Below, in pieces: positions 2,296-32,148 of a stretch of DNA of 32,699 nucleotides. Below the pieces are notes generated by a model, which did no database searches, was not told where the DNA came from, and was given only the letters and a program-made list of their open reading frames with translations. Within the stretch, counting starts at the first letter, position 1. The number at the start of each line of letters is the position of its first letter. Source of the stretch: an uncultured bacterium (GTDB lineage Bacteria > Hydrothermota > Tepidihabitantia > Tepidihabitantales > DTDR01). The translations under genes were made by a program, and so were the position numbers. Location: contig CALHQW010000004.1 of the NCBI GenBank assembly GCA_938040315.1, positions 1-32,699 on the forward strand, read 5' to 3'.

Positions 2296-2324
2296 TTGAA
2301 AATTTTTATTGTTCTTTTTAAAAT
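2296..2324 (+). promoter_or_regulatory. Promoter of tilS operon, leaderless type
   Basis: TTGAAA (2296-2301), a 17-nt spacer, and TAAAAT (2319-2324). The -10 ends 7 nt before the ATG at 2332, so transcription should start at or next to the start codon. The -35 hexamer coincides exactly with an alternative in-frame TTG at 2296, which therefore is unlikely to be translated. Confidence 0.65.
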
Positions 2325-2331
2325 ATTTTTG

Positions 2332-3711
2332 ATGGGTAGTGTTAAAATTTTAAAAAAAGTAGAAGAAACAATTAAAAAATATAAATTATTAGAAAAAGGA
2401 GATAAAGTTTTGATTGGTTTTTCGGGCGGAAAAGATTCGGTTTGTCTTCTTTATATTTTTTATTTATTAAAAGAAAAATATGATTTAAATTTAATTGCTT
2501 TTCATCTTAATCATCTATTGAGAGGTAAAGAGGCAAAAAGAGATGAAGAATTTTGTAAAGAATTTTGCAAAAAGTTAAATGTTCCACTAATCATTAAAAG
2601 AAGGGATGTTAAAAAATATAGCAAAAAATATAATTTAAGTATAGAAGAGGCTGGTCATAAATTAAGATATCATTATTATGAAAAAATTGCTCAAAAAGAG
2701 AAATGTCAAAGAATTGCTCTTGCTCATACTGCTTCGGATAATGAAGAGACAATTTTGCTCTCTTTAATCTCTGGTCAATCTTTGGGAAGAATTGCAGGAA
2801 TCTTACCCAAAAGAGAAAGGATTATTAGACCGTTGATTGATTTGACAAGTGAAGAAGTTTTGCTATTTTTAAAAGAGAATAATCTACCTTATGTAGAAGA
2901 TTCAACTAATAAAAATTTAAAAATTCCCAGAAATTATTTAAGAAATATTGTAATTCCCAATCTTAAAAAAATAAATTCTAATTTAGAAAAGACTTTAAGA
3001 CAAGTTAGCGAAATTCTATTTAAAGAAAATGAATATTTAGAAAGGGAAACAGATAGGGTTTATAATTTATTAATAAAAAAAGAGGATGATGATATTTTGA
3101 TTTCTAAGAAAGAATTTGTGATTTTGCCTTTAGCAATAAAAAGAAGAATTTTTAAAAGGCTCTTCCCTAATGCCAGTTTTTATCAAATAGAAGAAATGGT
3201 TAATTTGGTTAATAAACAAGTTGGTAAAAAAATAAATTTAAAAGAAAATATTATTTATAATGAGTATAATTATTTAAGAATACGCAAAGAAAATAAAAAA
3301 AAGACAATTAATGAAGTTTTTAAAATAAAATTAAACAAAATAAATAATTTCCCAAAGATTAATTTAAAATTGACTTGTGAAGTTATGGATATTGAAAAAA
3401 TTAAGAAATTTAATTATAATAATTGTGAATATTTTGATAAAAATGATATTAAATTGCCTTTATTTATCCGATTTAGAAAAAAAGGAGATATTATTAAAAT
3501 TAAAAAGGGAAGAAAAAAAGTTAAAAAACTTTTTATTGATATGAAAATTCCCAGGATAGTAAGAGATAATCTTCCTATACTATGTGACCAAAAAGGTATT
3601 CTTTGGATTTTTGGTGTTTATCGTGCTTATCGAGGTTTGATTAAAAAAAATACCAAAAAAGTTGTAAGAATAAAAATTTTAAAATGGCAAAATCCAATTT
3701 GCCAAAATTAA
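2332..3711 (+). CDS. tilS: tRNA(Ile)-lysidine synthase TilS
   Basis: This ATP-dependent ligase attaches lysine to C34 of the CAU-anticodon tRNA-Ile, so that it reads AUA; it is essential in an AT-rich genome. From ATG 2332 it has 459 residues. The PP-loop 'SGGKDS' lies at 31-36, the usual distance from the start. '[11 protein letters not shown]', '[13 protein letters not shown]' and 'NYLRN' follow, then a C-terminal domain ending in '[11 protein letters not shown]' and 'GVYRAYRG'. An in-frame TTG at 2296 would add 12 hydrophobic residues, but it falls on the -35 box. The stop lies inside ftsH (28-nt overlap). It is the first gene of tilS-ftsH-dapA-dapB; tilS-ftsH adjacency is common in bacteria and supports the call. 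Confidence 0.95.
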
Positions 3712-8535: not shown

Positions 8536-9258
8536 GTGGAAGATAGAGAAGTCTATAAAAAGGCTTTTAACCTTCTTAAAAAAGCAATTGAGAATTATGA
8601 TCTCTTAATGGAAAATGAAAAATTTATTATTGGAGTTTCTGGTGGAAAAGATTCTTTATGTTTAACTCATTTACTAAATGAATATAACAAAAGAGAATAT
8701 AAAAATTTTGATTTTATCTGTGTTTACGTTAAGCCCGATTTTCTTAATTTTAATACCAAAAGATTAATAAATTTTTTTGAAAAATATAAAATGAGATATG
8801 AAATATTAGAAGCAAAAGTTTCTGAGAAAATAAAAACCAGTAAAAAAAGTCCCTGTTTTCTTTGTTCCCGTGAAAGGAAAAGGATACTTTTTAATTTTGC
8901 TGAAAAGTTAAATATTAATAAAATCGTGATGGCTCATCATTTAGAAGACCTAAACGAAACTTTTCTGTTAAATCTTTTTTTTAATAGTGAAATTTCAACT
9001 TTTTTACCAAAACAAGACTTTTTTAATGGTAAATTTTATATTGTTAGACCTTTGTATTATTTTACCAATCCTTTAATTAAAAATTATAATAAGATTTTTA
9101 AAATAAAGCCAATAAAAAATCCTTGTCCTTATATAAAAGAGAATAAAAGAGAAGAGATAAGGAAATTTTTAGAAAAATATTATAAAAGAGATGAAAGAAT
9201 AAGAGAAAATATATTTAAAGGAATAAGAAATATTAAATTAAAGTATTTACCTTCTTAA
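8536..9258 (+). CDS. ttcA: TtcA-like PP-loop tRNA thiolase
   Basis: Probable tRNA 2-thiocytidine (position 32) synthetase, using ATP to adenylate the base and an Fe-S cluster to hand over sulfur. Its 240 residues start at a GTG. The PP-loop 'SGGKDS' lies at 35-40. A CxxC pair (C107, C110) in 'CFLCSRERKR' and a third cysteine C197 in 'NPCPY' match the three cluster ligands of TtcA. 'MAHHLEDLNETFLLNL' matches the conserved helix after the motif. There is no strong ribosome site; TACAAT at 8522-8527 might be a -10 box 8 nt before the GTG, but no -35 is seen. The related family TtuA normally has extra zinc fingers, which are absent here. Confidence 0.85.
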   Translation: MEDREVYKKAFNLLKKAIENYDLLMENEKFIIGVSGGKDSLCLTHLLNEYNKREYKNFDFICVYVKPDFLNFNTKRLINFFEKYKMRYEILEAKVSEKIKTSKKSPCFLCSRERKRILFNFAEKLNINKIVMAHHLEDLNETFLLNLFFNSEISTFLPKQDFFNGKFYIVRPLYYFTNPLIKNYNKIFKIKPIKNPCPYIKENKREEIRKFLEKYYKRDERIRENIFKGIRNIKLKYLPS

Positions 9259-23710: not shown

Positions 23711-23977
23711 ATGGGTGAGAAGAATAAAAAAATTGTTTTGTATGCTTTAAGCACATGTGGATGGTGTCGAAAAACAAAAAATCTTTTAAACAGATTAAAT
23801 ATCGAATATCAATGTTTTGAAGTTGATTTGCTGGAAGGAAAAGAAAGAGAGAAGATTCTTAAGGAAATGAAAAGATATAATCCCAATTTATCTTTTCCTA
23901 CTTTAGTGATTAATGATGAATTAGTAATCATTGGATATGATGAAGAGAAAATAAAAAAGGAATTTAAAAATGATTGA
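23711..23977 (+). CDS. Glutaredoxin-like protein
   Basis: An 88-residue thioredoxin-fold redox protein. The active site is C16-G-W-C19 after a first beta strand ('[13 protein letters not shown]'). The cis-proline loop is 'SFPTLVI', followed by 'IIGYDEEKI', as in NrdH/Grx-type proteins. It overlaps the next gene, a ferredoxin:disulfide reductase, by 8 nt, so that enzyme is the obvious electron donor in place of glutathione or an NADPH reductase. Targets could include ribonucleotide reductase or general protein disulfides; neither is shown here. Confidence 0.9.
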
Positions 23978-24458
23978 CAAAAATTTAATTAATTACTGGT
24001 ATGAAAAATTAAAAAAGGAAAGTGAAGAAAGCGGTTATTTTTTAAATCCTGATGAAGAATTTACCAAAAATCTGATCGAAGGATTACTTATCAACCAAGA
24101 AAGATATGGTTATTTTGCCTGTCCTTGTCGTTTAGCCACTGGTGATAAAAATAAAGATTTGGATATTATCTGTCCTTGTGATTACCGAGATGAAGATATC
24201 AATGAATATGGAAATTGTTATTGTGGTTTATATGTTTCCTATGAAGTTTATTCTGGCCAAAAACCAGTGATTTCTATTCCCGAAAGAAGGAATTTAAAAA
24301 AAGAAAGAAAAAATTCCATAAATAACTTTAATCTTCCAAAACTTTCTTTGCCTGTTTGGCGATGCAAGGTTTGTGGCTATCTTTGTGCCCGAGAAGAACC
24401 ACCAGAAATCTGTCCAATTTGTAAAGCGAGAAAAGAAAGATTTGAAAGATTTATTTAA
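23970..24458 (+). CDS. Ferredoxin:disulfide reductase (FTR catalytic domain) fused to rubredoxin
   Basis: A 162-aa two-domain protein. Residues 1-95 match the catalytic subunit of ferredoxin:thioredoxin reductase, with three CxC pairs (C51/C53, C68/C70, C83/C85) that hold the 4Fe-4S cluster and the redox disulfide. Residues 129-162 are a small rubredoxin-like domain with C132/C135 and C148/C151 (an extra C139 sits between). The domains are joined by a charged linker. The same combination is known from the ferredoxin:disulfide reductases of methanogens and some anaerobic bacteria. It probably passes low-potential electrons from ferredoxin to the adjacent glutaredoxin. It overlaps the glutaredoxin gene by 8 nt. 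Confidence 0.9.
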
Positions 24459-24664: not shown

Positions 24665-25666
24665 ATGAAAAAAAGAATTTTGACTGGTGACCGACCTACT
24701 GGACCTCTTCATCTAGGACATTATGTGGGTACGATTATTAACCGAGTGAAATTACAGAAGGAATATGAAACTTTTATTATTATTGCCGATGTTCAAGCAT
24801 TAACAACAAATTTCGAACATCCCGAGTTGTTAAAAAATGATGTCTTACAAGTGGCTATTGATAATTTAGCCTGTGGGGTTGATCCAGAGATTTCTTCTAT
24901 TTTTATCCAATCAATGATACCAGAAATTGCTGAATTGACAGTTTATTACTCAATGCTGGTGTCGATTAATTTGCTCTCCCATAACCCAACGATTAAAACC
25001 GAAGCAAAACAATATAATTTTGAAAAAAGTATGCCTTATGGATTTTTAGGATATCCAATTAGTCAAGCAGCTGATATCACTTTTTGTAAAGCAAACTTAG
25101 TTCCCGTGGGCGAGGATCAATTACCCCACATTGAGTTAACAAGGAAAATTGTAAGAAAATTTAATCAATTATATGGCGAAGTTCTTGTTGAACCTGAGCC
25201 TCTTCTATCTCACACTCCTCGCTTACCGGGCTTAGACGGTGGAACAAAGATGAGCAAAAGTTTAGGTAACTGTATTTATTTAGGTGATTCTCAAGAAGAA
25301 GTAAGCAAAAAAATTAAAAAAGCAGTAACTGATCCAAAAAGAATTCATCCTACCGATTTAGGACATCCTGAGGTATGTACAGTTTTTACTTATCATAAAG
25401 CTTTTAATCAAGAAAATTATTTAGAAATTGAAAAAAGTTGTCGGAATGGTAAGATTGGCTGTGTTGCTTGTAAAGAAAAGTTAATTGAAATTCTTAATCA
25501 ATTTTTAGAACCCATTCGGGAAAAAAGAAGATATTATGAAGAAAGAAAGAAAGAAGTAATAGAAATTCTTTATGAAGGAACAAAAAAAGCGAAAAGGATT
25601 GCCGAAGAGACTTTGAAAGAGGTTCGAGCAGCAATTAAGATTGATTATTTTAATTATTTTAAATGA
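24665..25666 (+). CDS. trpS: Tryptophanyl-tRNA synthetase, Fe-S type
   Basis: Class I aminoacyl-tRNA synthetase charging tRNA-Trp. Its 333 residues carry the HIGH-like motif 'PTGPLHLGH' (11-19) and KMSKS (195-199). The C-terminal part has C238-x20-C259-x6-C266-x2-C269. This closely matches the 4Fe-4S motif of Thermotoga maritima TrpRS (C-x22-C-x6-C-x2-C), where the cluster lies near the anticodon-binding region. The start follows a consensus promoter with no leader. It overlaps ispD by 4 nt and heads a five-gene unit. Confidence 0.96.
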   Translation: MKKRILTGDRPTGPLHLGHYVGTIINRVKLQKEYETFIIIADVQALTTNFEHPELLKNDVLQVAIDNLACGVDPEISSIFIQSMIPEIAELTVYYSMLVSINLLSHNPTIKTEAKQYNFEKSMPYGFLGYPISQAADITFCKANLVPVGEDQLPHIELTRKIVRKFNQLYGEVLVEPEPLLSHTPRLPGLDGGTKMSKSLGNCIYLGDSQEEVSKKIKKAVTDPKRIHPTDLGHPEVCTVFTYHKAFNQENYLEIEKSCRNGKIGCVACKEKLIEILNQFLEPIREKRRYYEERKKEVIEILYEGTKKAKRIAEETLKEVRAAIKIDYFNYFK

Positions 25667-26322
25667 AAAAATATGGAATAATCCTTGCTGCCGGCAAGGG
25701 AAAAAGATTCGGAAATTTAAAACAATTTTTTTTTATTAATGATTATCCTCTTTTTATTTATTCAGTTAAGGCTTTTGAAAACTCCCTTTGTGATGGAATT
25801 TTCGTGGTGACTTTAAAAGAGAAGAAGAGAGAAGTTTGGAAGTGGATTAAAAAGTTATCTTTTAGAAAAGTGAAAAAAGTAATTACTGGTGGCAAGGAAC
25901 GTTTTCATTCTGTTATGAAAGCATTGAGATTTTTACCAAGTCGGGGTTATGTAGCAATTCATGATGCTTCTCGTCCATTAATTACATCAAATTTTATTAA
26001 TCAAGGTTTTAGATTAGTAGAAAAATATAAAGCAGTAATATTGGGAATAAAAAGTGAAGATACTTTAAAGACTGTTTTTAATCACCAAGTGATCGCCACT
26101 TTAGACCGGCGTTATATTTATCGCATTCAAACACCCCAATTTTTTGAAATTAAAATTTTAAAGAAAGCTTATCAATTGGCAAAAAAGGAAAAATGGGAAG
26201 GAACAGATGATTCCTTTTTTTTAGAAAAAGCAGGGTTTAGAGTATATCTCTTTGAAGGTGACAAAAGAAATTTAAAGATTACTACTAAAGAAGATTTAGA
26301 GCTGATAAAGAATTTATTATGA
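25663..26322 (+). CDS. ispD: 2-C-methyl-D-erythritol 4-phosphate cytidylyltransferase
   Basis: Transfers CMP to MEP, the third step of the MEP isoprenoid route. Its 219 residues have the nucleotide-binding 'LAAGKGKRFG' (8-17), 'TGGKERFHSV' (75-84), 'IHDASRPL' (99-106), 'RIQTPQFF' and 'TDDSFFLEKAG'. All blocks expected for IspD are present. It sits between trpS and dxr with 4-nt overlaps on both sides. Dxr makes its substrate, so the two consecutive enzymes are coupled. Confidence 0.93.
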   Translation: MKKYGIILAAGKGKRFGNLKQFFFINDYPLFIYSVKAFENSLCDGIFVVTLKEKKREVWKWIKKLSFRKVKKVITGGKERFHSVMKALRFLPSRGYVAIHDASRPLITSNFINQGFRLVEKYKAVILGIKSEDTLKTVFNHQVIATLDRRYIYRIQTPQFFEIKILKKAYQLAKKEKWEGTDDSFFLEKAGFRVYLFEGDKRNLKITTKEDLELIKNLL

Positions 26323-27485
26323 AATTGAATTTGGCAATAATTGGGTCCACTGGGTTTTTAGGAAAGCAGGCTTTGGAGATTATTAAGGAATTAAAAAAAG
26401 AATTTAATATCTTTGCTCTTTCCTGCGAGAAAAATATTGATTTATTAGTAAACCAAGCGAAAGAATTTAGGCCACGCTATTTACAAATTTATGATTTTAA
26501 GGCTTATCAGGTTTTTAAGAAAAATTATTCTTCTAAAAATTACCGAGTGGTTTATGGCGAAGAAGGTTTGTTAGAAATAGTTGCCCATCCGGAAGTAGAT
26601 GGGATCCTTTTCCTTGCCGCGAAAACAAAATCTTTAAAAGCCTTAATTTTAGCAATAAAAAAAAGAAAAAAAATTGCCTTGGCTTCTAAAGAGTTAATTG
26701 TTGCTTTTGGTTCGCCAATTTTTCAATTAGTAAAAAAAGAAAGAATAGAAATTATCCCAATTGATTCGGAATTAGTAGCAATTCACTCGCTTTTAAATAA
26801 TTTTGGTAATAAAAATCTAAAAAAAATATTCCTTACTGCTTCTGGTGGTTATTTTTTTTCTCGTAAAAGAAATTTAGAGAGACTTACTGTAAAAGAAGCC
26901 CTTTGTCATCCGGTTTGGAAAATGGGGAAAAAAATTACTATTGATTCAGCAACCTTAATTAATAAAATTTTTGAAATAATCGAAGCAAGTTATTTCTTTG
27001 ATCTACCAATAGAAAAAATTGGAATCCTTATTCATCCGCAAGGAGTAATCCATGGACTCATTGAAAATCTTGACGGAATCATTTACGGAATGTTTGCAAA
27101 ACCAGATATGAAAATTTTTCTTTCTTATGCCCTTTCGAAAATAGTAAATAAAAATTATAATATTTTGAATAGCGGAATAAAAGATTTTTCTTCTAAAAAT
27201 TTAACCCTAATTAAACCGGATAAAAAAGATTTCCCCGCTTTAGAATTAATTAATTATTTACAAAAGGATACTTCATTGCCAGCAGTTTTGGTAGGTGCTG
27301 ATGAAGTAGCGGTAGAAAATTTTTTAAAAAATAATATTAAATTTACTGATATTATAAAAATCATTAAAAAAACCTTAAAGGCTCATAAAAAGATTTTAAA
27401 TCCTAATTTAATAGAATTAATTCAAGCAGAAAATTGGGCAAGGCATTATGCCGATAGTTTAATAAATAAAATAAAAAGGAGATAA
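26319..27485 (+). CDS. dxr: 1-deoxy-D-xylulose 5-phosphate reductoisomerase
   Basis: Converts DXP to MEP with NADPH, the committed step of the MEP pathway. Its 388 residues contain the NADPH motif 'GSTGFLGKQALEI' (9-21), 'ALASKELIVAFG', the metal- and substrate-binding 'PIDSELVAIHSLL' and 'TASGGYFF', 'WKMGKKITIDSATLINKIFEI' split over a loop, and 'IHPQGVIHGLI'. All catalytic acids are visible. The gene lies just upstream of rseP, a common dxr-rseP order. A Shine-Dalgarno for rseP lies at its 3' end. Confidence 0.97.
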   Translation: MKLNLAIIGSTGFLGKQALEIIKELKKEFNIFALSCEKNIDLLVNQAKEFRPRYLQIYDFKAYQVFKKNYSSKNYRVVYGEEGLLEIVAHPEVDGILFLAAKTKSLKALILAIKKRKKIALASKELIVAFGSPIFQLVKKERIEIIPIDSELVAIHSLLNNFGNKNLKKIFLTASGGYFFSRKRNLERLTVKEALCHPVWKMGKKITIDSATLINKIFEIIEASYFFDLPIEKIGILIHPQGVIHGLIENLDGIIYGMFAKPDMKIFLSYALSKIVNKNYNILNSGIKDFSSKNLTLIKPDKKDFPALELINYLQKDTSLPAVLVGADEVAVENFLKNNIKFTDIIKIIKKTLKAHKKILNPNLIELIQAENWARHYADSLINKIKRR

Positions 27486-27486
27486 A

Positions 27487-28731
27487 ATGGATTTATTGAT
27501 AGTAGCAGTTGTTATTGGTATTTTAATTACTATTCATGAAATTGGTCATTTAATCGCTGCTAAAATTTATAAAATTCCGGTAGAAAGATTTTCTATTGGT
27601 TTTGGACCATCCTTAATAAAAAAACAGATTAAAGAAACAACTTATTCTATTTCTTTAATACCTTTAGGTGGTTATATAAAACTAAAAGGTGAGGAGGAAG
27701 AGGAAGAAAACGGATTTTTATTACAACCAACAAGAAAAAAACTAATGGTCGTTTTTATGGGTCCCATCGCTAATTTAGTTTTGGGGATTTTTCTTATTTT
27801 TCTTTTATATTTTTTATTTGGAATGAAATATTCACCACCAATACTCAATTTGGAAAAAAAAGTTGGTTATTTTGAAAAAGGGGATGTTTTAATTGCGATT
27901 AATAATGATACAATTAATTCTTTTGAAGAAGCCTACCAAATCTTGGAAAAAAATTTAAATAAAGAAGTCCTTTTTCATATTTTACGAAAAGAAAAATTAA
28001 TCAAATTTAGTTGGGTAATAAATGATAGTTTTCGCCATTTTTTTCCACTAATTTTACCAATCGTTGAAAGAGTAAAAAAAGGAAGTCCGGCTGATAAAGC
28101 CGGTTTAATGCCTAATGATACAATTATTGCTATTAATGATACACTTATTTATAGTTGGGAAAATTTGATTGAAAAGATAAGAAACTCTGGAGGAAAAAAA
28201 CTAAAAATTACTTATCGCCGAAAAGGAATTTTCTCAACTTATCTTACTCCGCAATTAGTTTCTCCTGATACTTCTTCAAAAAAAATTGGTCAGATTGGTA
28301 TTTGGGTCTATTTACCAAAGAGAAAAATAAATTTTCTTCAAGCCTTTTCGCAAGCTTTTATTCGTGGTGGTTATGTGATTGCTCAGACTTTTGTGATTAT
28401 TTATAAACTAATCACTGGCGAAGTTTCGCGAAAAGTTTTAGGTGGTCCAATAATGGTTGCTCAGTTAACTTACGAGAGTCTTCGTTGGGGATGGGAATAC
28501 TTTTTAGCCTTGTTTGGACTATTGGCAATTAATCTTTTTGTTGTTAATATTTTACCTATTCCGGTTTTAGATGGTGGTCGGGGATTAATTTTTATAATTG
28601 AATTTATTATAAAAAGAAGATTAACAAAAAAAGAATTGAATACCGCGATAACCATTGGTTGGGCAATAATTATGCTTTTAATCCTTTTCACCTTTTATAA
28701 TGACCTCTCCCGAATTTTTAAAACAAAATGA
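27487..28731 (+). CDS. rseP: Site-2 intramembrane zinc protease RseP
   Basis: Membrane metalloprotease that cuts transmembrane helices, such as anti-sigma factors or signal-peptide remnants. Its 414 residues show the zinc motif H17-E-I-G-H21 in the first helix, 'GFGPSLI', the beta-hairpin 'ISLIPLGGYIKLKGE', a second membrane helix (about 90-112), a degenerate first PDZ and a clear second PDZ ('VKKGSPADKAGLMPNDTI'). The third zinc-ligand motif is 'NILPIPVLDGG' near 352-362, followed by a final helix. A strong AAGGAG precedes the ATG. The next gene overlaps by 4 nt. No anti-sigma or sigma gene is nearby, so the substrate is unknown. Confidence 0.95.
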   Translation: MDLLIVAVVIGILITIHEIGHLIAAKIYKIPVERFSIGFGPSLIKKQIKETTYSISLIPLGGYIKLKGEEEEEENGFLLQPTRKKLMVVFMGPIANLVLGIFLIFLLYFLFGMKYSPPILNLEKKVGYFEKGDVLIAINNDTINSFEEAYQILEKNLNKEVLFHILRKEKLIKFSWVINDSFRHFFPLILPIVERVKKGSPADKAGLMPNDTIIAINDTLIYSWENLIEKIRNSGGKKLKITYRRKGIFSTYLTPQLVSPDTSSKKIGQIGIWVYLPKRKINFLQAFSQAFIRGGYVIAQTFVIIYKLITGEVSRKVLGGPIMVAQLTYESLRWGWEYFLALFGLLAINLFVVNILPIPVLDGGRGLIFIIEFIIKRRLTKKELNTAITIGWAIIMLLILFTFYNDLSRIFKTK

Positions 28732-29945
28732 AGAAGTTCCTTTTTCTTTATTCACCTTTTTCAAACCTTTCTTACGAAGAGAATTTTCCACCAAAAGGGG
28801 CTAATTATTTTTTAAAAGAAAAAGAAGAAATACTCCAAATAAAAAATTTTTTAGATTTTGATTATCAAGATTTAAGAATAAGAAAGTTAGAATTAAAGGA
28901 TTATGAATATATTTTTTTATATTGTGATTTTTTAAGTGATTTTCCGACAATTAATTCTCTTGGAGAAAATATCCTAAATAATAAAAAGAAACTTTTTCTT
29001 TTTGGTCCTTTAATAACCCATTATTTCTATTATCAACCTTCTTTATTAGAAAATTTAAAAGAAAAAGATTTATCATTGATAATTGGTTTCTTACCAAATA
29101 TTCTTTCTAAAATTCTTACGGATATCAATAATCAGGAGATTAAAAAAATTTATCAAGCTCCTCTTCTTCCTAATTACTTTCCTATGGATTCCCAAATCTC
29201 TTTAATTATTGGTTGTTATTGTTTAGAAGAACTTAAACCCTTTTGTAAAAACTTTCTTTATTTTAAAAATAATATAAAAATCCGCGAGATAAAAGAGGTA
29301 ATTAAAGAAGTCAGCAATAAAAAAAGAAAGTTAATAGAAATTGATGATGAAGATATTACTAGGAATTTTATTTATTATTCTGATTTTTTCTCTTCAGTTT
29401 GGCGATTTCGAAAACATTGGATTATAAAAACTTCTCAAAATATTTTTGAGAATCCAAAATTTATCCGACTTTTAGCCAAGGCGGGGGTGAAAGTTATTTA
29501 TTTAAATGAGAGTTGGTTAAATCTCGATAATTTAATAGAAAAGGAAAATAACAAATTAATAAAAGAAAAAAGAAAGGAAGTAAAATCCCTTCAAAAAGAA
29601 AAAATTCTTGTGGGAGCAAAACTTTCGTATATCTTAAAAGAAAGGAAAATTAATTTTAAAAAAATTTTTAATATTTTAAGAAAAATTGACTTTGATTTTT
29701 TAGAATTGAGGTTTTTTCTCTTAGAAAATAACCAACTTTATTTAACCTATCCTACTTATCAACCTTTTCTATCAGAAACCTCACCAGTTGTTTTAAAAAG
29801 AGAATTCTATTCTTTGCGAAATATTATTTATCGTTTATTAAAGAGACCACGACGGGTAGGATTTTATAATACTTTTTTTTATTCTTTACCTTTAAATCTG
29901 GCTTATCGCCAGAATTTTTTAGAAGGAATTCCTTTTCCTCCTTAA
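28728..29945 (+). CDS. Degenerate B12-binding/radical SAM-like protein (probably inactive)
   Basis: A 405-aa protein that follows the layout of B12-dependent radical SAM enzymes of the DUF4070-like type. It has an N-terminal cobalamin-like half ('DYEYIFLYCDFLSDFP', 'LFGPLITH' where GGPHAT is usual, 'LSLIIGFLP' where GEGE is usual, 'IKKIYQAP'). A radical-SAM half follows ('LIEIDDEDITRN', 'NPKFIRLLAKAGVKVIYLNES') with a tail 'EFYSLRNIIYRLL'. Where the CxxxCxxC cluster motif belongs there is only 'GCYCLEELKPFCKN' (C163, C165, C173), with the wrong spacing. No cobalamin DxHxxG is seen. I infer a pseudoenzyme or strongly altered member. It overlaps rseP by 4 nt and abuts the convergent NifU-domain gene with no gap. 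Confidence 0.6.
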   Translation: MKKFLFLYSPFSNLSYEENFPPKGANYFLKEKEEILQIKNFLDFDYQDLRIRKLELKDYEYIFLYCDFLSDFPTINSLGENILNNKKKLFLFGPLITHYFYYQPSLLENLKEKDLSLIIGFLPNILSKILTDINNQEIKKIYQAPLLPNYFPMDSQISLIIGCYCLEELKPFCKNFLYFKNNIKIREIKEVIKEVSNKKRKLIEIDDEDITRNFIYYSDFFSSVWRFRKHWIIKTSQNIFENPKFIRLLAKAGVKVIYLNESWLNLDNLIEKENNKLIKEKRKEVKSLQKEKILVGAKLSYILKERKINFKKIFNILRKIDFDFLELRFFLLENNQLYLTYPTYQPFLSETSPVVLKREFYSLRNIIYRLLKRPRRVGFYNTFFYSLPLNLAYRQNFLEGIPFPP

Positions 29946-30185
29946 TTACACAATATTTTCTACTTTTTTTACTTCGGAAAATTTTTCTTTTAATCTTTGT
30001 TCAATCCCTAAGGCAAGAGTAAAAGTAGCAAAAGGACAACCAGCACAACTACCAAAAAGTTTTACTTTCACAATCCCATCGTTAGTTATTTCTACAATTT
30101 CACCGTCACCACCATCAGCGATTAATCCTGGTCTTATTTCTTTCTCAAAAAATTCTTTAATATTTTTCTTTATTTCTTCGTTCAT
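29946..30185 (-). CDS. NifU-like (Nfu) Fe-S scaffold domain protein
   Basis: A 79-residue stand-alone NifU C-terminal domain that carries or delivers Fe-S clusters. It shows 'IRPGLIADGGDGEIVEI' and the ligand pair C47-x-x-C50 in 'GSCAGCPFAT', followed by the helix 'LALGIEQRLKE'. Nothing is missing for the family. It overlaps the DUF362 gene by 4 nt, and its stop touches the stop of the convergent radical-SAM-like gene. It could supply clusters to the many Fe-S proteins implied in this window (TtcA, TrpRS, FDR). Confidence 0.93.
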   Translation of the reverse strand: MNEEIKKNIKEFFEKEIRPGLIADGGDGEIVEITNDGIVKVKLFGSCAGCPFATFTLALGIEQRLKEKFSEVKKVENIV

Positions 30186-31270
30186 TTTAAATCCTCCTTT
30201 AAATATTTTTTAAAAAGTTTTCCCCATTCGCTTTCTAAAAATCTTTTTAAACGCATCTTGCCAATAAAAGGGTACCACAAAAAATCGTGATAAAAAGTTG
30301 AAGCAATTGGTGCCCAAATCCATAAAGGTGAATGAAGGGCAATTTTTTTTAGAAATCTTAAATACCCTTTTCTCAATTGTTGGTCACCAAAAATAACAAA
30401 ACTTTTTTTGGTTTTAAATTTAAAATTTAAAGAAGAAATATCTTCGCCATAAATTTTTATTTTTTCTAAATCAGCACAACCTAATCCTAAATCGTGAGCA
30501 ATTTTTAAATAATTAATTTTTAAAGGATCAAATCCCATTATTTTTGCTGCGACGGCATCTAAGGCAACAGAATCAAAAGAAGCCAAAATTAGATTGCCAA
30601 TATAAGGAAGCATCGTTCGCGGACCAGCACCATTGCCACAAACAGTACCATCCATTACCGCAAAAATAACCGGATGGATTTCCTTTTGCATTATAAGTAA
30701 ATCAACCAATACTTCGTGAATAAACTCATGACCATAATGTCTAACCTCTTTCAATAATCCACCAAAGGCATTTTTAATAGCACCGGTCGTAACCGAATGG
30801 CCATGGGTTTTTAAAGTTGGTAAATGAAGGATATTTTTGTTAATAAAGATTTTAGGAATATAAATACCTTCTTTAAAAATTTTATCAAGTTTCAACAAGG
30901 GAGTTTTAAAATCGTATCTTATCCATTCCTGCTCGGGTAAAGGATAAAATTTTAAATTATATTTTTTTAGAACATTAAGCCAGCCTTGATTTTTTGCTCC
31001 TTTCTTCACATCAGTAACAACTGTCTTATTTTCACAAGGATAAATTTTTTCTTTATCATAACCATCTTTTAATAAAGTCCTTACTACCCCTTCTAATTGC
31101 CAGGGAGGAGAAGAAGAGGCAGGATAAAAAAGTGTCCAAGATAAATTCAATTTAATAATTATTTCTTTATCCTTTTTTAAAAATTCTTGGTAATTTGCTA
31201 AATGAAGTAATTTCTCATAATCTTCTAATATTTTGTTTGGATTGGTTTTAACAACAAAAACTTCACTCAT
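30182..31270 (-). CDS. DUF362 domain protein
   Basis: A 362-aa protein of the DUF362 family (unknown function, sometimes fused to ferredoxin domains). Family features seen: 'IIIKLNLSW' near the N-terminus, 'ILHLPTLKTHGHSVTTGAIKN' split over the central block, 'NAFGGL', 'VMDGTVCGNGAGPRT' and 'SFDSVALDAVAAKIMGFDP'. No CxxCxxC ferredoxin motif is present. The C-terminal ~70 residues are aromatic and basic ('SPLWIWAPIASTFYHDFLWYP') and might associate with the membrane. It is joined by 4-nt overlaps to the UbiA-family gene upstream and the Nfu gene downstream. Its position suggests a role linked to the prenyl product or Fe-S metabolism, but this is a guess. Confidence 0.85.
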   Translation of the reverse strand: MSEVFVVKTNPNKILEDYEKLLHLANYQEFLKKDKEIIIKLNLSWTLFYPASSSPPWQLEGVVRTLLKDGYDKEKIYPCENKTVVTDVKKGAKNQGWLNVLKKYNLKFYPLPEQEWIRYDFKTPLLKLDKIFKEGIYIPKIFINKNILHLPTLKTHGHSVTTGAIKNAFGGLLKEVRHYGHEFIHEVLVDLLIMQKEIHPVIFAVMDGTVCGNGAGPRTMLPYIGNLILASFDSVALDAVAAKIMGFDPLKINYLKIAHDLGLGCADLEKIKIYGEDISSLNFKFKTKKSFVIFGDQQLRKGYLRFLKKIALHSPLWIWAPIASTFYHDFLWYPFIGKMRLKRFLESEWGKLFKKYLKEDLK

Positions 31271-32148
31271 CTTATCTTATAAATAATAAGTATCACACAA
31301 ATAAACCACAAAATAACATTTATTAATAAGGGAATATCTTTAATAAATGCCTTATCAGGATTTTCCCAAAATTGGCGATGATAAATTAAATAAAGATAGC
31401 GAAAGATTCCATAAATCACAAAGGGTAATGTGAAAATCAAATTTTTGGTTTTAAATTTGTTTATTGTTTCCGGAGCGACGGTATAAATACTGTAAGCAAT
31501 TAAAGAAGAAGCAGTGGCAACATTAATCATTTGGTCAATAAAATTATGAGAGTAATCTTTTAAAACTTTTCTATGAAAAATCGCCTTTTCATTAAGCATT
31601 TCAATTTCCGTTTTTCTTTTTGTGAGGGCTAAAAATAAAGCAAGTAAAATAGTACAAATAAAAAGCCATTCAGAAAGAGAAACATTAATCAGAACCGTTC
31701 CTGCCCAGGCTCTTAAAAGAAAACCAAAAGAAACAATAATCACATCCAAAATTACAATGTCTTTAAGATAAAGAGTATAAAAAATTGATAAGAGAATATA
31801 AAATATTAATACCAAAAAGAAAGAGGATGAGAGAAAATAAGAAAAAATTAATGAAAAAATAAGCAAGAGAATTGCTAAAATAAAAGCAACCTCTTTTTTT
31901 ATTAAACCATTAGCAATTGGTCTTTTTCTCTTTTCAGGATGGAGTTTATCTCTTTCGTAATCTTTGACATCATTCAATACATATAAAGCACCAGAAGCAA
32001 AGGAAAAAAGAAAGAAAGCGAAAACTGTTTTTAAAAATAAAGAAATATTAAATAACTTTTGAGCAAACACTAAACCAGCAAAAATTAAAATATTTTTAAG
32101 CCATTGATGCGGTCTTAAAGAAATGAAAAAATAATATATACTTTTCAT
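31267..32148 (-). CDS. UbiA-family prenyltransferase, decaprenyl-phosphate phosphoribosyltransferase-like
   Basis: An integral membrane enzyme of 293 aa with about eight helices. The first Asp-rich motif is N59-D-V-K-D63-Y-E-R-D67, followed by 'HPEKRKRPIANG'. The second motif region is 'YLKDIVILDVIIVSFGFLLRAWAG'. 'SLRPHQWLKN' at the N-terminus and these blocks are characteristic of the branch that includes mycobacterial DPPR synthase (Rv3806c type), which links phosphoribose to polyprenyl phosphate for arabinose or other decaprenyl-sugar donors. Other UbiA reactions remain possible. It is first in the UbiA-DUF362-Nfu operon and appears leaderless. Confidence 0.85.
   Translation of the reverse strand: MKSIYYFFISLRPHQWLKNILIFAGLVFAQKLFNISLFLKTVFAFFLFSFASGALYVLNDVKDYERDKLHPEKRKRPIANGLIKKEVAFILAILLLIFSLIFSYFLSSSFFLVLIFYILLSIFYTLYLKDIVILDVIIVSFGFLLRAWAGTVLINVSLSEWLFICTILLALFLALTKRKTEIEMLNEKAIFHRKVLKDYSHNFIDQMINVATASSLIAYSIYTVAPETINKFKTKNLIFTLPFVIYGIFRYLYLIYHRQFWENPDKAFIKDIPLLINVILWFICVILIIYKIR

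Follow-up and report, generated by a model that had tools for sequence, protein, structure and literature searches.

The window, by which we mean the whole 32,699-nucleotide stretch of DNA analysed here, contains a run of overlapping genes on the forward strand. It opens with trpS, recognized from its sequence as encoding tryptophanyl-tRNA synthetase (24665..25666), and continues with ispD (25663..26322), dxr, encoding DXP reductoisomerase (26319..27485), and rseP (27487..28731), encoding a site-2 membrane protease (TIGR00054, 7.4e-84; Peptidase_M50, 1.9e-59). The gene under study (28728..29945) lies directly downstream of rseP and shares 4 nucleotides with it. It is an intact ORF with an ATG start, encoding a protein of 405 amino acids, and both the frame and the overlap are as given in a preliminary description of this DNA. 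Searched alone, the protein matches no family in Pfam or NCBIfam. Convergent with this gene run, at 30182-32148 on the reverse strand, a DUF362 protein adjoins a UbiA prenyltransferase. Elsewhere in the window, a ferredoxin-thioredoxin reductase catalytic chain (PF02943, 1.1e-23) is fused to a rubredoxin-like domain (PF21349) at 23970-24458, and two PP-loop ATPase genes are found at 2296-3711 and 8536-9258, one with a TilS C-terminal domain and one short.

The family to which this protein belongs, referred to below as the variant family, was traced with a profile run against 147 genomes of candidate division WOR-3, the phylum of the window (given as Caldifarciminota in the tree output). Orthologues were found in 47 of these genomes, each at E < 1e-79, and are separated by a clear gap from the remaining matches, whose E values range from 1e-45 to 1e-20. 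Named genomes were also scanned with a single C-terminal peptide pattern. Of the 15 loci matched, 14 carry the title candidate division WOR-3 and one is labelled an uncultured bacterium, such that every match was to a WOR-3 or an unnamed locus. Our literature search found no paper pairing radical SAM with WOR-3. Four papers mention both radical SAM and RseP; one of these (PMC6411480) deals with PDZ proteins. The reading frame is open in all 47 genomes. In one of them (G025) a TGA codon within the match was considered as a possible selenocysteine or readthrough site and rejected, being an ordinary stop near the C terminus. Within the genus of the window, the dN/dS of the gene is 0.12–0.14, and it is under purifying selection. 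The earlier proposal that the protein has been retained is thereby upheld.

The relationship of the variant family to radical-SAM enzymes is seen at the level of profiles. An hhalign comparison with canonical relatives that carry the CxxxCxxC motif, and that themselves score with the Pfam Radical_SAM model (PF04055), gave a full-length alignment over 393 columns with an E value of 1e-38. Single-family models detect the kinship in part of the members: PF04055 matches 3 of 26 variant members (best 3.2e-5), and NCBIfam models match 6–7 of 16, the best being HpnR (1.2e-10), HpnJ (3.4e-9) and BchE (1.1e-6). A direct sequence search of solved structures with the variant-family profile matched none; the profile of the canonical relatives finds MgmA and AprD4.

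Structure prediction leads to the same superfamily. The AlphaFold2 model of the window protein (pLDDT 85.7, pTM 0.85) has MgmA (2.7e-9), AprD4 (5.9e-9) and OxsB (3e-6) as its top Foldseek matches, and VIA-align gave Z scores of 17.8 for AprD4, 17.2 for MgmA and 16.8 for OxsB, with RimO, MiaB, CysS and TsrM at around 16. For L046, a member of the sister branch, the model (pLDDT 76.9) aligns with AprD4 at Z 21.6 and OxsB at Z 18.7. Both models match AprD4, MgmA, OxsB, RimO and MiaB, with Z between 16 and 22, and contain a partial TIM barrel. The B12-type radical-SAM layout and TIM-like barrel anticipated in the preliminary description were therefore recovered, by hhalign and by a window model that matches AprD4, MgmA, OxsB and TsrM with Z of 16–18. 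Descent of the variant protein from the B12-type branch of the radical-SAM superfamily can be regarded as almost certain.

In the tree, a single branch, supported at 100/100, divides the variant group from the canonical one. The variants constitute a distinct clade of the B12-type radical-SAM superfamily, confined to WOR-3 within the range searched. They also appear to have a single origin, in which one rearrangement of the motif became fixed, and the tree does not contradict this.

What distinguishes the clade is its cluster loop, C163-Y-C165-x7-C173, encoded at 29214..29246 on the forward strand. The three cysteines had been noted previously and, like the other sequence stretches quoted at that time, are all present. 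They are also found in all 46 orthologues that cover the region, with the spacing CxCx7C in 45 and CxCx6C in one. The CxxxCxxC motif occurs in none of the variant-family rows and in all 21 canonical homologues read, so that its absence extends throughout the orthologues and does not mark out a single decaying copy. In a joint alignment of both groups (44 rows), C163 and C173 are aligned and invariant, as is G162, and the two cysteines correspond to the first and third of the canonical motif. Three residues ahead of the last cysteine, where the canonical motif has its middle one, the window protein has K170, and 43 of the 46 orthologues have lysine or arginine. Compared with the canonical loop, that of the variants has three extra residues and a new invariant cysteine two residues past the first. 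In the AlphaFold2 model, a strand (160-162) precedes C163 and a helix (174-179) follows C173, just where the canonical motif would have its first and third cysteines.

The preliminary description held that the cluster-binding motif had been lost. This is where we depart from it, since three invariant cysteines lie in the loop that follows barrel strand 1, two of them aligned with canonical ones. The simplest account of the loop is that one cysteine ligand has been relocated, the motif being apparently rearranged and not deleted. On this evidence, C163, C165 and C173 may well bind a cluster, and it is probable that the protein binds a metal or an Fe-S centre of some kind. A gene resembling queE, as judged by eye, is convergent with the variant gene at three sister-branch loci (L046:5283-5966, L047:5034-5726 and L052:5020-5703, all on the reverse strand).

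Outside the loop, conservation is uneven. The N-terminal Rossmann-like half (approximately residues 1–151, encoded at 28728..29180 on the forward strand) is homologous to the B12-binding domain of the canonical relatives, and the window model aligns with AprD4, OxsB and TsrM from residue 1 on, which identifies it as an N-terminal B12-type Rossmann domain. All seven canonical relatives matched full-length by hhalign score with the B12-binding model PF02310; among the variants it is met in 1 of 26 members, at 0.063. The FGP (residues 92–94) and GFLP (120–123) substitutions noted earlier are present, and occupy the positions of GG.HPS and GEAE in the canonical relatives. Across the variant family GG.HPS has become FGP or YG.., and GEAE has become GDI or, in the genus of the window, GFLP, such that the B12-contact motifs are not conserved. 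Because these motifs have changed and the B12 Pfam model is nearly unmatched, cobalamin binding by the variant protein appears doubtful.

The segment KLIEIDDEDI (29328..29357, forward strand), which runs from K201 to D207-E-D209, is equivalent to the DDN segment of the canonical relatives. K201 and D207 are present in all 47 orthologues and D209 in 44, so that an acidic DD(D/E) segment is kept at the DDN position, and W231 and G253 are also kept in the family. The sister branch retains TPLPGT and LGYEGE alongside the same CxCx7C loop. Both have been lost from the order to which the window belongs, which is without TPxPGT and the glycine of the FGxD strand, features that the sister branch retains.

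In 44 of the 47 orthologue genomes, rseP lies immediately upstream on the same strand, and the adjacency to rseP seen in the window is therefore conserved. Two of the exceptions (G029 and G118) have the variant gene or rseP at a contig end; in the third (G006), the genes occupy separate contigs, and neither is close to a contig end. At L091:7080-11773 in this last genome, the orthologue follows a large gene that, by eye, resembles a secreted peptidase. Eight named loci were read, and in these ispD, dxr and rseP precede the variant gene, with the same 4-nucleotide overlap in five; the place of trpS in the gene run is repeated in L039, L040 and L042. No rseP is found within 8 kb of any of the 56 copies of canonical homologues checked. 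Conversely, rseP is present but the variant gene absent in families f4 and f8 of the class. Together with the separation seen in G006, this indicates that neither gene strictly needs the other. The possibility that a canonical radical-SAM gene fills the slot behind rseP where a genome has no variant gene in that place was considered and rejected, as none follows rseP in the five loci read (L081, L082, L084, L089 and L090). At the two f8 loci among them, a transporter-like gene comes after rseP.

With the cysteines conserved in 46 of 46 orthologues, rseP adjacent in 44 of 47 genomes and dN/dS at 0.12–0.14, the association of these features is far beyond chance. Position alone does not demonstrate a joint function, because dxr is a frequent neighbour of rseP in bacteria, as found in a survey (PMC6411480). 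The chances that the variant protein is functionally linked to RseP seem to us about even.

These observations can be rationalized in terms of a variant WOR-3 clade that is likely still to bind a [4Fe-4S] cluster through CxCx7C and to act as a non-canonical radical-SAM or SAM/Fe-S enzyme, a reading to which we assign a probability of about 0.6. C163, C165 and C173 would ligate three irons of the cluster at its usual place after strand 1, and the new C165 would stand in for the canonical middle cysteine, a basic residue now occupying the latter's position. The fourth iron, together with the D207-x-D209 segment, would hold SAM. The protein may plausibly act on a component of the membrane or envelope, since it is encoded together with RseP and with IspD and Dxr of the MEP isoprenoid pathway. 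The odds that it carries out SAM-dependent catalysis are close to balanced. More tentative still is the proposal that the loop represents a new mode of [4Fe-4S] binding, with a basic residue at the old middle-cysteine position, in a protein that acts with RseP on a shared envelope substrate. Of the preliminary description, then, the descent, the retention, the coupling to rseP and the absence of CxxxCxxC all stand, whereas the loss of the motif does not. Nor is the loss of SAM chemistry that it proposed supported, given the apparently rearranged CxCx7C and the retained DD(D/E) segment.

The main rival to the radical-SAM reading is a non-radical metalloprotein, in which SAM chemistry has indeed gone, the cysteines hold a cluster or zinc for structure or redox sensing, and the protein regulates or scaffolds RseP. 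Such a role would accommodate the eroded B12 and SAM-barrel signatures, the invariance of the cysteines and the constant pairing with rseP, but it sits less easily with the retention of D207, D209, W231, G253 and the barrel fold. Furthermore, the sister branch combines CxCx7C with TPLPGT and LGYEGE and thus keeps more of the barrel motifs, from which it follows that the loop could change while much else was retained. We consider this alternative unlikely, if worth serious attention.

Considerably less probable is an enzyme of isoprenoid-lipid metabolism that would modify a polyprenoid derived from the MEP pathway, in the manner of the hopanoid enzymes HpnR and HpnJ. The gene run is shared with ispD and dxr, and among named NCBIfam families HpnR and HpnJ score highest; however, the scores of the sister-branch protein L046 are far below the curated cut-offs (32.6 bits against 650 for HpnR and 27.6 against 577.6 for HpnJ), the canonical relatives match many B12 radical-SAM families alike, and the common occurrence of dxr beside rseP (PMC6411480) makes operon position weak evidence. 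Squalene-hopene cyclase has no match in the bacterium's own genome and only two partial matches in 65 genomes of the class, and a hopanoid role is unlikely because this cyclase is all but absent there. That the gene is a decaying pseudo-enzyme without function, as the lack of recognizable Pfam and NCBIfam scores in the window copy might suggest, can be dismissed in view of its invariant cysteines, its dN/dS of 0.12–0.14 and the open frames of 47 genomes.

Three implications can be drawn. A clade in which the middle cysteine has shifted, and which has been kept across several families of the phylum, is a natural experiment on the tolerance of the cluster loop. With its gene fixed in place behind rseP, a connection of a radical-SAM-fold protein to membrane proteolysis can be put to the test in a little-known group of bacteria. 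Finally, CxxxCxxC is the mark by which radical-SAM enzymes are recognized, and this filter misses families of different spacing; the window protein matches nothing in Pfam or NCBIfam.

Changed cysteine spacing with SAM chemistry kept has precedents in ThiC (CX2CX4C), HmdB (CX5CX2C), PhnJ (CX2CX21CX5C) and QueE (CX14CX2C) (PMC4389238), although none of these motifs is the CxCx7C of the variant family. In the literature search that string turned up in one paper, on mitoribosomal [2Fe-2S] clusters (PMC11791143). Among named families, HpnR, HpnJ and BchE score best with the sister branch, yet far below their curated cut-offs and in a class almost devoid of hopene cyclase. Closer to hand, the bacterium's own genome encodes, on another contig, a canonical homologue with full-length homology to the variant (L031:2892-4241) in which the loop reads CPYDCDFC. 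Unlike the variant, canonical WOR-3 homologues such as this one have CxxxCxxC, GG.HPS and GEAE intact, and their genes, in 56 copies, are not near rseP.

The closest structural relatives are the cobalamin-dependent radical-SAM enzymes MgmA (9ccb), OxsB (5ul3), TsrM (6wte), CysS and TokK, which share with the variant a Rossmann-like N-terminal half, a partial TIM barrel and a cluster loop after strand 1. They differ from it in having CX3CX2C together with GG and GE.E B12-contact motifs, where the variant has CxCx7C and replaced motifs. The radical-SAM diol dehydratase AprD4 (6fd2) heads the VIA list for both models, level with MgmA and OxsB for that of the window. Its cluster-loop spacing is different from that of the variant, and it has a known small-molecule substrate, paromamine. 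AprD4 also illustrates that the same fold exists without cobalamin.
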